Assembly: GCA_014871385.1 (NCBI GenBank)
Contig: CM026432.1
Span: 389,194-453,193 of the forward strand
DNA length: 64,000 bases
Reading direction: 5' to 3'
From: Ceratodon purpureus
Lineage: Eukaryota > Streptophyta > Bryopsida > Pseudoditrichales > Ditrichaceae
Shown: in pieces, positions 37,954-43,888 of the stretch
Numbering within the stretch: position 1 is the stretch's first letter
How the letters are laid out: every line of letters starts with the position of its first letter
The notes under the pieces: model-generated
The model's input: only the letters and a program-made list of their open reading frames with translations
The model's database searches: none
What the model was told of the DNA's origin: nothing
Position numbers and translations under genes: made by a program

Positions 37954-39012
37954 CTAGTGCCGATAAGTTTTAACAACTTGGTCGATGTGGCGTCGACAAA
38001 GCGGGCAATTCGTGAGCTGCGACGAGCACGACGTACAACAGCACATGTGACCACACGGCACAAACACTGCATTATACTCCTGCTCCAAGCATATGACACA
38101 CAAGTCGGGCGTTGCACCGTCTTTCTTATGAACTGTATGTACACCATCGTCAAGGGGATGCGCAGTGACGTCGTCACTCTCCCCCTCCTCACCCTCTCGT
38201 TGCGATGCCTGTCGCAAAGCTGCAGCTGCCATCACCCTCCTGTGCAGGGCCTCTCTCCTACGGCGCTCCAAGACATGCTTGATGGCATGTGAGGTGATGA
38301 AATAGATGCCCACGAGGGTGACCCCAATTGACATGTACTTATACCACCGTGACCATCTCCCCAGATTCGCAACCAGCTGGTCCAGGCTCTTGGGTGTCAC
38401 ATAGAACGGCCCCTTGTTAGGTTTCTGAATCCGAATAAGTCCTCGGTCATCCTTCACCGCTTCCCCTACAACAGTAAGGCTAGTACCCGTTGGAAGAACC
38501 CTCTCCACCCTTTTCACCCCCAGCATTTTCAACCCCTGCAAATAATCCAGTGTTCCGCGCACAAGCGACCGTCCCGACTCCTCAAAGACTTCACTAGCAA
38601 CCGTGAGCTCCATCCCCGCTGCATTCCGCGCCCCAACAACATAGACACGGCCGGACCCATCCTCCAAATACCACGGCACCTCTTTGCTAATGGACAGCAT
38701 GAGCGCCGAGTCTTGGATCCACGACCCCGTATCATTGTGCTTCAGAAAATGCTGCTCCGCGGTCTCTTCGAGAATCACCCCCCGCAGACTCGAATGCTCA
38801 CACGCAATTGGCGCCTCGGATCCCACCCGCCCCGCCACCGTGACCACCAGCGGCACCACCTTGCACGCGGACTCCAGCAACATGGCCAAATCCTTCAACT
38901 GGTTCACCTTCTCGATGGACCTCAAATTGAGCGCGTCGCGGCCTGTGTTCCGGCTCAGGCAGTAGAGCGCTGCCCCGCTCAAGCACAGCGTGATCCCTCC
39001 CCATGACAACAT
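37954..39012 (-). CDS. SP1/MUL1-type membrane RING E3 ubiquitin ligase
   Basis: A single frame of 352 aa, close to the 343 aa of Arabidopsis SP1. There is a hydrophobic N-terminus (residues ~3-20, ITLCLSGAALYCLSR), a central GIDE/BAM-type domain (VAGRVGSEAPIACEHSSLRG, then GSGRVYVVGA) and a second membrane span near 225-245 (YMSIGVTLVGIYFITSHAI). A basic linker follows, and a C-terminal C3HC4 RING (CVICLEQEYNAVFVPCGH ... CPLCRRHI). In this family the RING faces the cytosol from the outer membrane of chloroplasts, mitochondria or peroxisomes; SP1 ubiquitinates TOC components. Which organelle applies here is not determined. The coding region has no intron. The leader just upstream is extremely G-rich on the coding strand. 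Confidence 0.93.
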   Translation of the reverse strand: MLSWGGITLCLSGAALYCLSRNTGRDALNLRSIEKVNQLKDLAMLLESACKVVPLVVTVAGRVGSEAPIACEHSSLRGVILEETAEQHFLKHNDTGSWIQDSALMLSISKEVPWYLEDGSGRVYVVGARNAAGMELTVASEVFEESGRSLVRGTLDYLQGLKMLGVKRVERVLPTGTSLTVVGEAVKDDRGLIRIQKPNKGPFYVTPKSLDQLVANLGRWSRWYKYMSIGVTLVGIYFITSHAIKHVLERRRREALHRRVMAAAALRQASQREGEEGESDDVTAHPLDDGVHTVHKKDGATPDLCVICLEQEYNAVFVPCGHMCCCTSCSSQLTNCPLCRRHIDQVVKTYRH

Positions 39013-39285
39013 GACTTGTCCTCTCCTCCCCTGCCCTTTCCCCCCCTGCCCTTCCCCGCCCTCCCTTTCCCCCTTCCCCCTTCCCCCGGCTCAACCCCAC
39101 CTCTCTGAACCCCTCATGAAAACCCCAGCAGCACCAGCACCAGCACCGGCACCGGCACCAGCACCTGACACATCCTCATCAACAAAGACCTAACCCTAAT
39201 CCAAGCATCCTGAGAAGCCAATTGCCCACGGAGGAAAAGAGTTACAAGTCCCTCCCTCCCTCCCTCCCTCCCTCCCTCCCTCGTT
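39013..39285 (-). promoter_or_regulatory. G-rich leader/promoter of the E3 gene
   Basis: On the coding (minus) strand, 39088-39021 is an almost unbroken series of GGGGGAA and GGGCAGGG tracts ending just before the ATG, and 39283-39250 is (GGGA)n. A GCACCA/GCACCG repeat lies at about 39128-39165. Both G-rich blocks meet the G3+N1-7 pattern for G-quadruplexes. The telo-box-like CTAACCCTAA is at about 39191. Confidence 0.55.
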
Positions 39286-39390: not shown

Positions 39391-42300
39391 TAAGGTAGGA
39401 GTACTCATAACCGTCCTTTTAAGCTATTTTGGGCTGGTTACCACTTACAGGAAGAACCAAAAGTAATATTCATAGATTTGCAAGAGAAAATTAAAAATAT
39501 TGAGAGAAGAAAGAGTCTTAGAAAAAACAAGTATGTATTTATTATATAATTTCAAAGTACATAATTCGTAGGGTGCTATGTCTGTCCATAGCTGGTGGTG
39601 GAATGGATCAACAATTAGCTCATTCTTGTCCAGAGAAAACCCACTCATGCCTGCATCATATCCTAAAAATATTTTTAACTTCACTGATTACCATCCGCAA
39701 GTGTCTAAAAGAACCAAGGTACAGTGAATAAAAAATTGTCCTCAAATGTCCAACTACCGCTGCAAAGCTAACTCAAAAAGAACCCAAAAGCACCTCATAG
39801 GCGCCATCTATGAACAGTAAACCGTCCCACCAAAACTGGAAAGCAACTGTAGAGTGTGAAGATCCGACCCACGAGGCCCATGCACGCACAGGTAGCCAAC
39901 GGCTCTTCCCTCCAACTTTCCAACGTCTCAAAACGGGACGGGGTCCATGGAAGTCGGATCTCCAGCCCCTGGCCTCGTCGGACCTCCATCGGCGCAAGGT
40001 GCAGCCCCTGCCCTCGTCGGCGCTCTTCTGCGCTTGCGCGCCTGTTGCTCCAGCCCCGTCGCTGCCTCCCTCTGCTTACGCTCTTTCTCTGCCTCTCTCC
40101 TCGCCTTCTCTCTTTCCTTCAGCAACTTCTTGCGCTCCGCTTCAATGCGCCGCAAGACCTTCGCGGTGTCTTTCGCCTGTTTCTCTCTCTCCTTCTCGAG
40201 CTTGCGGCGCTCTACTTCTTGCTTTCGCTCCTCTTTCTCTTGTAGCACAGCCTCTTTTCGCGCTGCCTTGGCCTCCATAGTCTCGATGTACTCATCGCTC
40301 GTCATGAGAATCGAACTGCTGTAATCTATCAGGGGCTCGTTGCGGTGGCGCTGTCTTCGAGCAGGGCGAATGACTCGTGGGAGTTCGAAGAGATTCGGCA
40401 GTGCAGGCAGCGGTGCAGGCAAGTGGTCCGCCCTGCCGACGTTTTCTTCCCTGTCCGAATCGTCGGGGTCCGAAGGCACGTAGAAGTGGTCACCCGCCGG
40501 TTGTGAGCTCGGAATGCGCTCTCCAAGCAGCTCTTCCATGCCCGGATCCGCCTCCGTCTCGCCCTGGTCAGTGCCCTCACCTCCATCCGGCTCGCTTTCA
40601 GATCCCGACAGTAGAGGTTGCCCATCCCCATTCTCAGGTGCCTCGGTTTCGAAACATTGTGAAGGTCCAGTGTACTTATCCATGGCGTTGGGATTCAAAG
40701 GCCATATGCCAGTAGTTTGGAAACCTTTGATGATGTTTGCAGGTGTCAGCGCTTTTCTAAGTCCTAGCGAAACCCATTGTGCGAGGTCTTCCTTGCCGGC
40801 TCCTTGCCCTCTGTTACGGACTGACCATGCATCTCTGTAACCTCGAAACGCTACTTTGAACGGTTTAAAAATACTGACATCAAGTGGCTGCAGACGATGG
40901 CTGGTATGGCTAGGCAATGACAACACATCAAGTCCATGCTCTTTGGCTTTCACAACAACGTCCAAAGTTACGTGAGATCCATGCCCATCGAGAACAAGCA
41001 GGTGCCTATTTTCAGGTGAGATTCCAAACCTTCTCCCCAACACATTGATGAAATGAGATATCCAGCCAGCAAACAAGTACGATGACATCCAGGCATTGTC
41101 TTGCATTGACATAGTGGCCCCAGCTTCACATTTACATATGTAGTCTCGCTCTCTGCGTCGTCCTTTGAAGATGTAATAATTCGGAATTGACTGGCCTGCA
41201 GCGTTGATGCAGGACAGAACAGTGATATGTTCTCTGGCGTCTGGAACCACTGCATGTACAGATCTAGTTCCTCGTTTCGCGAAAACAAGATTCCCACCTC
41301 CAGATCTACCTGCTTGCGCTCCACTCTCGTCGGCGTTCCATATGTGATCTGCAGGATACTTGTGCGTCCTGAAGATGAACTCCAGGTTACGGTATAGAGA
41401 GGCGACACTTGTTGGATTTAAGCCTCTCGCTCGGCCTTCTTCCAAGCACTGGGGAGCTCTAAGGGTGAGCTCCGGATGCCTGCGTCGAAACCATCGAAGC
41501 CAGCCCGCCCCAGGGACACCATTCTTGAAAGGCGTCCACCTATCTTGTGTAAGCTCTGCAACTTTCATTCTCACATCAGTGATTGAAAGAGGATGGGCGC
41601 GCTCTTGCATGTCAAGCAAATATCTTACCAACTGCTCGTCCTCCTCGACCGATAACACTCCCTGCCTCCCCTTCTTCCGTTTGAGCGTCTTGCCGTAAAC
41701 GTGGTCTCTTAAGGATGATGCTGGAATGTTGTAGTCTCTTGCCACCGCCTTCAGTTTCGCGCCTGAGTCGATGGCAGCAATCGCCGCTTGCAACTGCTCG
41801 TCCGTCCAGAGCCCGGTCCTCCTTCGATGCTGCGCAGGAGCTCTCTGCGTCGACGTCCCACCGAACTCCATCGGCGGTCCAGGGCGTGCATGCGATGGGC
41901 GCAGGTTGTACCCTGTAGCACTCTCCCGCGACGCCCTCTCGTGCACCACGTCTGAGAAGCGCACCTGCCCTGGCCTTTGGTGGGCACTCATCGCCTGGCC
42001 CACCGCGGTTGCTTGAAAACCACCTCGTGCCCCACCACCATTCTCTCGCACCCCACCTCCCATGCTGGGCATCGCCTCGTGGAAAGCAAAAGCTCCGACC
42101 CCATTGCCGAAGATGCTTGATTGTCGACCAGGGAGGTTGGGCACTGGCCGGAACACCGAGGCCTCACCAGTGAATTGCAGCTGATCAGACACTTCGCTTT
42201 CTCTCACTAATCCATATTGTTGTAACTCAGGGGCCCAGCTCTCTTCTTCATTGTAGACACTCTCGTAACCTCTCTCTGTCTCCGTATTACTTGCCATGGT

Positions 42301-42861
42301 CACTGTCAAGAGGAGAAAATCTCTACTTCTATGTTCAAAAAAAAGATACACAAGAAACTAAAACAAAGCCTTAAGCAATCATCAGTGCAACACTTCTTTC
42401 ATACCATGGAGAATTCACTTTGCAACATAAATTTTTGTTCTCTTCTGTATTTGCATTACAACCAAGCCTTGCACCCTTCATTAATGGGCAATATTGCAAA
42501 TACTGCACCCTAAGTTACAAAACGCCGCCACTTACCATTCCTTAACTAGTTGTAATTAGACCCTAAACTGCCCCCACCCTCTACTTTAACTGCAACACAT
42601 GGCTGCTAAACTGCGTTTAAATATTTGATCAACCACCCTTCTACTAATCTAATTAATTTATAGTACCAATAGTATCATGTATCAATCTCCGTCCATCACG
42701 AGACCCTATACAGCCTCATCCTTATATTATTCTGTCCATGACAATCCCCATAACCGTCACTTTTCTGTCCAAATCAGGCTTGGGATGTCATGGGGCGGTT
42801 GTGGGTCAAAAATTAGGGCTCGGAGTTGGGTAAAGGGACGGTTATGAGTACTCCTACCTTA
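39391..42861 (-). mobile_element. complete pogo-like (Tc1/mariner superfamily) DNA transposon, 3.47 kb
   Basis: The left end TAAGGTAGGAGTACTCATAA (continuing CCGTCC, 39391-39416) is repeated exactly in reverse complement at 42836-42861, giving 26 identical terminal bases. TA dinucleotides flank both ends (39389-39390 and 42862-42863), as expected for pogo insertion. Sub-terminal copies of ATAACCGTC occur near the right end (about 42755). Inside is one long transposase frame on the minus strand with no visible damage. Perfect ends, TA flanks and an intact frame suggest a recent, possibly autonomous element. Confidence 0.88.
39928..42297 (-). CDS. pogo-like transposase (HTH_psq, CENP-B type HTH, DDE_1)
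   Basis: 789 aa from the ATG at 42297; an in-frame upstream ATG at 42351 would add 18 residues. Domains in order: a low-complexity N-terminus (1-~160); an HTH of the pipsqueak type at ~163-207 (LWTDEQLQAAIAAIDSG, IPASSLRDHVYGK); a CENP-B/Tc5-like second DNA-binding region at ~210-290 (SVEEDEQLVRYLLDMQ, WLRWFRRRHPEL); and a DDE_1 catalytic core with Asp 323 (IWNADESG), Asp 437 (LVLDGHGSH) and Asp 473 (SHRLQPLDVSIFKPF). This gives a DD35D spacing. The C-terminal ~150 residues are a Lys/Glu/Arg-rich probable coiled coil (KEREKQAKDTAKVLRRIEAE). The enzyme should cut and paste the element at TA. No stops or frameshifts were seen. Confidence 0.93.
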   Translation of the reverse strand: MASNTETERGYESVYNEEESWAPELQQYGLVRESEVSDQLQFTGEASVFRPVPNLPGRQSSIFGNGVGAFAFHEAMPSMGGGVRENGGGARGGFQATAVGQAMSAHQRPGQVRFSDVVHERASRESATGYNLRPSHARPGPPMEFGGTSTQRAPAQHRRRTGLWTDEQLQAAIAAIDSGAKLKAVARDYNIPASSLRDHVYGKTLKRKKGRQGVLSVEEDEQLVRYLLDMQERAHPLSITDVRMKVAELTQDRWTPFKNGVPGAGWLRWFRRRHPELTLRAPQCLEEGRARGLNPTSVASLYRNLEFIFRTHKYPADHIWNADESGAQAGRSGGGNLVFAKRGTRSVHAVVPDAREHITVLSCINAAGQSIPNYYIFKGRRRERDYICKCEAGATMSMQDNAWMSSYLFAGWISHFINVLGRRFGISPENRHLLVLDGHGSHVTLDVVVKAKEHGLDVLSLPSHTSHRLQPLDVSIFKPFKVAFRGYRDAWSVRNRGQGAGKEDLAQWVSLGLRKALTPANIIKGFQTTGIWPLNPNAMDKYTGPSQCFETEAPENGDGQPLLSGSESEPDGGEGTDQGETEADPGMEELLGERIPSSQPAGDHFYVPSDPDDSDREENVGRADHLPAPLPALPNLFELPRVIRPARRQRHRNEPLIDYSSSILMTSDEYIETMEAKAARKEAVLQEKEERKQEVERRKLEKEREKQAKDTAKVLRRIEAERKKLLKEREKARREAEKERKQREAATGLEQQARKRRRAPTRAGAAPCADGGPTRPGAGDPTSMDPVPF

Positions 42862-42863
42862 TA

Positions 42864-43888
42864 TGTATGGCGATGGCACAGTGCACAGTGCACAGTGCAC
42901 ACTCCCAAGTCCCGTGACATCCAAGTCACCAGTGGGCAGCAGCCAAGGCCCAAGAGCCAAGGGGGACACACATGGGCGTGGCGGGACTAGAATCCAGCAC
43001 TGCAGTGCAGTGCAGTGCAGTGCAGTGCAGTGCAGTGCAGTGCAGTGCAGTGCAGTGGGCGAAAGCGGGGACGGATTCAAGCCTAACTTAGTCAGGCTGC
43101 GGCGTACCTTACCCTCACGATGCTGATGCTGATGCTGATGGTGATGCTGATGCGCAGGCTGAAGCTGAAGGCGATGGCCATGGCCATGGCGAAGGCGGTG
43201 GGGTGGCGGTCCGCGGACCCTTCCCTTCCCTTCCAAACCGATTTTATGGAATGAGTTGTTCACAAAAGAGAAAAATGAAAAAATGATAAGTGTGAAGCCT
43301 TCCTCAGGCTGCTCTTATTTATTGCCTCATGGCTGGTAACTTCAAGGCCCTTTGGGTGATAACATACAGAGGCTAATTGTACTCTTCTACTCTACTTCAG
43401 TCTAAGACATCCGGAGTTGCATGTTGGTGCTTCCGAGGTCGTACCCTTCTACAACCTTTCTACAACCTTTCTAACATGAGTAACTTATATGGTGCCACAC
43501 AACATCCCGCATCATGGGCCAATGCTCCTCACTCCTCCCTCTTCCCTCCTCTCCATATGCTCAATTTCTCTTTTCTTTTTTCACTCCCTCATTCTGCTTT
43601 CCATTTTGAAATTAAAGTTCTTAGTTTGCAAGGTGTTCACCTGGTGATTCAAACAATGTTTCATATGGAAAACAAATTTAGAAGGAAAAAATTGTTGCAT
43701 TAACATTATCAAGGCGAAGGCGTCCTCTTTTCCACTCTAGTCCATACATAGATTGAAAGTATTGTAGAATGACGAGAAGACAGACAAATATAAGGAACGT
43801 CAAACGAATAAATGGGATACTATTTTTTTTTATTATGGTCATTGATTCATCTTATTAATTCCAACTTATCAATCATTAACCGCTAAAG
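42864..43888. other. spacer with simple repeats
   Basis: A (TGCAG)n/(AGTGC)n tract spans about 43000-43058, CTAACTTAG sits at 43083-43091, and GATGCT/GATGGC repeats lie at about 43120-43195. The frames at 42859-43263 and 43377-43703 derive from repeats or lack any recognised content. Confidence 0.5.

Follow-up and report, generated by a model that had tools for sequence, protein, structure and literature searches.

A young family of potentially autonomous pogo-like transposons in the moss Ceratodon purpureus

Results

Structure and insertion site of the element

The window, the whole 64,000-nucleotide stretch of the Ceratodon purpureus genome analysed here, contains a pogo-type DNA transposon of 3,467 bp at positions 39393-42859, with its transposase on the minus strand; it was delimited by its repeats, its open reading frame (ORF) and a comparison of ten copies. 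The TA target-site duplication lies on both sides (39391-39392 and 42860-42861), as stated in a first-pass annotation made from the sequence, and the edges were fixed by comparing the ten copies, whose flanks differ. The interval originally annotated, 39391..42861, does hold the element, but it counts both TAs.

The terminal inverted repeats (TIRs), defined by copy comparison and a whole-genome pattern search, map to 39393-39416 (plus strand) and 42836-42859 (minus strand). They are perfect over 24 bp (AGGTAGGAGTACTCATAACCGTCC), after which come a single mismatch and TTTA, and 28 of 29 positions match when one mismatch is allowed; an inverted-repeat search of the window returned a pair of 35 nt with 97% complementarity. 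The inverted identity of the termini had been annotated correctly, but not its length of 26 bp, which includes the TA. The symmetry of the window copy continues outside the TA (CATATA.../...TATATG) because of the target site of this copy, and the full extension is absent from the other nine copies. Three exact copies of ATAACCGTC were found, one in each TIR and one at 42750-42758 (plus strand), 110 bp away from the right end, the last being a possible second contact for the transposase. Since two of the three lie inside the TIRs, just one is truly sub-terminal; the motif had been described as several sub-terminal repeats, of which the motif itself is retained and the plural is not.

The element lies upstream of a GIDE/RING E3 ubiquitin ligase ORF (37954-39012, minus strand), which has the same strand as the transposase; the left TA is 378 bp from the start codon of this ORF, and the element could affect its promoter. 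Eight neighbouring ORFs were scanned, and six of them, counting the ligase, gave Pfam matches to ordinary cellular genes. The insertion lies in DNA rich in tandem repeats, with short arrays on either side at 39249-39282 (TCCC x8.5) and 42997-43057 (GCAGT x12).

The transposase

The sole long ORF of the element (39928-42297, minus strand) is unbroken and encodes 789 aa. Pfam profiles matched a DDE_1 domain at residues 356-517 (E = 5.4e-20, 72 bits, cut-off 22) and an HTH_Tnp_Tc5 domain at residues 218-279 (E = 4.4e-7, 30.2 bits, cut-off 22.2), as well as a weak HTH_psq at residues 165-203 that falls under its cut-off (E = 0.0045, 17.1 bits, cut-off 20.4); HTH_ABP1_N gave no match in the same scan. 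The predicted catalytic triad is D323, D437 and D473, with 35 residues separating the last two, and the undamaged 789-aa DD35D transposase that had been annotated was thus confirmed. Seven other DD35D proteins (one sibling copy and six members of sister families) were scanned, all of which carried HTH_Tnp_Tc5 above its cut-off, and four HTH_psq weakly, below cut-off.

A PDB sequence search with the transposase returned no chain at E <= 1, and scans of viral and prokaryote contigs gave 30 and 61 pattern matches, respectively, with no relative among them. An AlphaFold model of the DNA-binding and catalytic region alone was set aside (mean pLDDT 34.5).

Copies of the family in the genome

The assembly searched comprises 362,488,568 bases in 151 contigs, of which C6 (110.5 Mb) accounts for 30.5%. 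A whole-genome search with the element gave 65 matching pieces, with 40 of 71 candidates scored, and revealed the sibling copies that the first-pass annotation had proposed to look for: ten full-length elements (L009-L017 and L019) of 3,391-3,691 bp, on eight contigs (C12, C4, C10, C11, C2 and C8, with two each on C7 and C9), all with different flanks. Their pairwise substitution ranges from 0.11 to 2.99%, the lowest value being that of L016 and L017, which are located at unrelated sites. TA is present at the left end of all ten copies and at the right end of nine, L014 reading TG. The ends are perfect over the 24 letters searched in eight copies.

Intact ORFs were found in seven copies (L009-L012 and L015-L017, with 789, 789, 789, 789, 829, 816 and 829 aa, respectively), and are broken in L013, L014 and L019. 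A 13-residue tandem repeat (PTRAGAAPCADGG-like) at the C-terminus of the ORFs of L015, L016 and L017 varies in copy number between copies and explains most of the 789-829 aa length range.

The 24-base TIR pattern, with up to three mismatches, has 25 sites in 362 Mb, against none for a reversed-pattern control, and 20 of these are both ends of the ten copies, so the termini are not due to chance. The other sites are single ends: one of L018 on C6, where the right end and about 2.7 kb remain at 92% identity; one each of L025 and L027; one end of the 325-bp, MITE-like L061; and a lone TIR-like end, L063, for which no partner was found within 3 kb. L025-L027 are left-end matches with 69-85% identity that look like older, decayed relics and not like recent deletion derivatives, L026 having one weak right-end candidate (5 edits). 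No MITEs of the window family were found, all ten pairs with the window TIR spanning 3,391-3,691 bp. As to the non-autonomous derivatives proposed as a check, no short pair with the TIR of this family was found, but a sister TIR group has MITE-like pairs of about 325 bp.

None of the ten full-length copies lies on C6 despite its share of the genome; a simple proportion, applied post hoc, gives this a chance of about 0.03. According to the available text of PMC8000587, the genome of C. purpureus is 360 Mb and the U and V chromosomes each exceed 100 Mb, about 30%; C6 is presumed to be a sex chromosome.

Sister families

A DDE_1 profile search of the genome gave 545 first-look candidates, of which 150 were scored. 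In 83 of these the frame stays open for 500 aa or more with the domain free of stops, and in 38 for 700 aa or more; the window family is absent from the 150 scored places, and the DDE_1 counts are therefore lower bounds for the genome. With seven of the ten copies intact and 83 of the 150 scored places open, the window copy is not unusual in being intact, contrary to what had been suggested.

Eleven proteins of sister families (L028-L038) were examined and all have DD35D with the 35-residue spacing; the eight that were aligned are 51-58% identical to the window transposase. Both ends could be read in five of the eleven loci, and the TIRs there start with AGGTAGCA, as in the window family, with which they share the AGGTAG terminus. 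The sister families differ from the window family in the body of the TIR: the TIRs of L032, L034 and L035 are perfect over 25 bp (AGGTAGCAACACCCATAAGCGTCCC), and those of L028 and L029 are imperfect and start with AGGTAGCAGCA.

A wider TIR pattern matched 207 sites in the genome (control, 0). Among the 100 sites listed, at least 29 pairs face each other: the window family accounts for 10, another 8 are 328-329 bp apart, a single pair measures 590 bp, and 10 span 3.5-4.6 kb. The TIR variant AGGTAGCAGCACCCATAACCGTG marks the MITE-like pairs of about 325 bp, which the window family does not have. L061 (facing pair at L061:1197-1525), the only one of the eight short pairs whose sequence was read, has 325 bp and TA on both sides; the others, with ends like AGGTAGCAGCACCCATAACCGTG, are at C2:12778522, C9:16125175, C9:16172234, C13:7654599, C4:3838326, C11:11430400 and C1:23208633. 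Judging from length and TIR, the eight are probably a single MITE family that a sister pogo family mobilised.

L004, L005, L006 and L008 represent a second pogo type, whose ends are of the CAGT kind (like CAGTCACACCTCGATAAGTGTTACC); the five relatives that were fetched (L004-L008) are all on C6.

Selection and age

Pairwise dN/dS among the seven intact ORFs (21 pairs) was 0.10-0.45, values that may partly reflect unequal mutation rates besides selection, since synonymous divergence within the element exceeds non-coding divergence several-fold (0.017 against 0.0027 between L009 and L010). Private changes were counted only at two-state columns in which at least eight letters are present and the window copy is ungapped. 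The private coding changes of intact copies were 19 synonymous and 16 nonsynonymous, against a neutral expectation of 26.6% synonymous (binomial p = 5e-4), whereas those of broken copies were 10 and 47 (p = 0.96), with four stops counted as nonsynonymous. The two classes differ (Fisher p = 4e-4, or 1e-3 with stops excluded), although with both the stops and the window copy removed the value is only p = 0.045. Because private changes are biased towards synonymous ones in intact copies and neutral in broken copies, the aligned sequences indicate that the intact lineages encoded a selected transposase until recently, and that the broken copies drift. The window copy has 9 synonymous and 3 nonsynonymous changes (p = 7e-4), and its lineage therefore appears to have encoded a selected protein for much of its end branch.

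The window copy carries 14 private substitutions (0.40%) and its end branch, 0.0047, is the second-longest among the seven intact copies. At 9e-9 per site per year, a rate used for a moss in the available text of PMC7466625, our arithmetic places the upper limit for its insertion at about 0.5 Myr and the split of L016 and L017 at about 60 kyr. Identical ends were rejected as a clock: the copies with perfect ends include L013, whose ORF is broken, and since eight of ten copies have such ends and the window branch is among the longest of the intact copies, they are weak evidence of recency. The recent activity that had been read from the ends is nevertheless sustained by the 0.11% divergence of L016 and L017 and by the selection on the ORF.

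No paralogous empty site was found for five copies (the window copy and L010-L013) by searching with their joined flanks. Of 70 candidates 40 were scored, ten of them the copies' own half-sites; the other 30 were all taken up by a single repeat of the L010 flank, which makes the test weak. Comparison of the copy flanks with the other loci fetched gave no junction-spanning match to another locus.

Discussion

A complete transposon of a young family

The TIRs, the TAs at independent sites, the ten dispersed copies, the intact triad and the synonymous-biased substitution make it highly probable that the window contains a complete, potentially autonomous transposon of the pogo superfamily (IS630-Tc1-mariner), belonging to a young family of C. 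purpureus whose copies are 0.1-3.0% apart. The potential autonomy proposed in the first-pass annotation is in line with the family of ten and the signature of selection on its ORF. The minus-strand gene would be transcribed, and the 789-aa transposase would use the helix-turn-helix domains near its N-terminus to bind the AGGTAG...ATAACCGTC termini, cut the element out with its DD35D catalytic site and reinsert it at a TA dinucleotide, which is duplicated; the window copy may still move in this way.

Present movement is the one point denied by an alternative that is compatible with all the evidence presented and to which we give slightly less than an even chance, namely that activity of the family ended a few hundred thousand years ago and that it is now silenced, the window copy being intact but inert. 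The few full copies, three of them already broken, and the private substitutions of the window copy, on a branch of about 0.5 Myr, speak for such silencing, but the near-identity of L016 and L017 at different sites, about 60 kyr old, and the excess of synonymous changes along much of the window branch speak for later activity. Purifying selection on the ORF could also be exerted by the host, if the transposase had acquired a host function. Once domesticated, pogo genes are normally confined to a single locus and no longer carry TIRs. Here all seven intact ORFs are framed by perfect TIRs and flanking TAs and occupy unrelated sites, which makes domestication very improbable. Least credible is that the copies are assembly duplications or contamination, for which no support was found: one entry of the wider DDE_1 list, L002, does come from a small contig (C53, 45,525 bases), but the ten copies are all spread, with unrelated flanks, over eight contigs that measure 16.7-26.6 Mb. 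The window copy, moreover, lies among ordinary cellular ORFs, and both its 150-bp flanks match only their own place (40 scored of 70 candidates).

A pogo family in a moss

A complete, young pogo family in a moss bears on the host range of the superfamily. In the available text of PMC7386202, pogo in land plants is a single eudicot clade (Lemi, 23 species), and in that of PMC7325037 it occurs in dicots and as two Selaginella sequences; one of these two 2020 surveys states that there is no significant pogo amplification in land plants. The remark that pogo is sparse in plants agrees with both surveys, as far as their available text goes, but is contradicted by this genome, where pogo is numerous. 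Since these surveys, in the same text, give land-plant pogo from eudicots and Selaginella only, a young family in a bryophyte widens the range of hosts. The available parts of PMC4054914, PMC7466625 and PMC4905642 describe Tc1-type and other mariner elements in Physcomitrium patens; the last two suggest transfer between fungi and moss, and PMC4905642 refers to a Repbase report of 2010 on DNA transposons of mosses. Among the matches listed from the open-licence literature, a scope that leaves Repbase outside, no title or abstract opening reported pogo in a moss. As far as this literature goes, the family is new in its host, and its mechanism is ordinary.

The 545 first-look DDE_1 candidates, the families sharing a terminus and the young, potentially autonomous family change the known distribution of pogo in land plants, and allow a test of whether it reached plants vertically or from fungi. 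The window family is also a candidate endogenous transposon for moss genetics. We tentatively raise the possibility, with the odds somewhat against it, that mosses host a Fot-like radiation of their own, with AGGTAG termini, numerous families, MITEs and autonomous copies that are mobile at present; Fot-like pogo is otherwise fungal and protist. If true, this would contradict the published view that land plants have seen no amplification of pogo, and could indicate that the elements came from fungi long ago.

Comparison with known elements

The element has the traits of the pogo superfamily (ITm group): a DDE_1 nuclease domain, a helix-turn-helix/CENP-B-type domain (HTH_Tnp_Tc5), and TIRs with a TA (or TAA/TAAA) target duplication, here TA at ten left and nine right ends. 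Its 3,467 bp and 789 aa are within the 1.2-5.2 kb and 300-977 aa given for the superfamily in the available text of PMC7386202.

Recently amplified cut-and-paste elements with intact ORFs are known from another moss, PpTc1 and PpTc2 of P. patens, but these are of the DD34E Tc1 type, with CAGT ends and a reported kinship to fungal elements, unlike the pogo element of the window (PMC4054914 and PMC7466625, available text). Closer are two pogo groups in the available text of Gao et al. 2020 (PMC7386202). The Fot/Fot-like group, mainly of fungi, shares with the window element DD35D and the TA duplication, recorded in 50 Fot-like elements; its members have HTH_psq and/or HTH_Tnp_Tc5, and the window protein has the latter together with a weak psq match, under the Pfam cut-off, before DDE_1; its TIRs are mostly 40-60 bp against 24 bp here, and that text lists no land-plant member, in contrast to the plant host of the window element. 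A supposed resemblance to Fot TIRs was dropped, as it was not found in the literature searched. Lemi, from eudicots, fungi and others, likewise has plant hosts and the TA duplication, and allows Tc5 alone or HTH_ABP1_N with Tc5, as well as DD29-42D, a range spanning the spacing of 35; in that text, however, its land-plant hosts are 23 eudicots only. HTH_Tnp_Tc5 is not specific to Fot, since Lemi and Passer carry it too. On domain content and termini, DD35D and the weak psq lean towards a Fot-like assignment, and the short TIR and the Tc5 domain would also fit Lemi.
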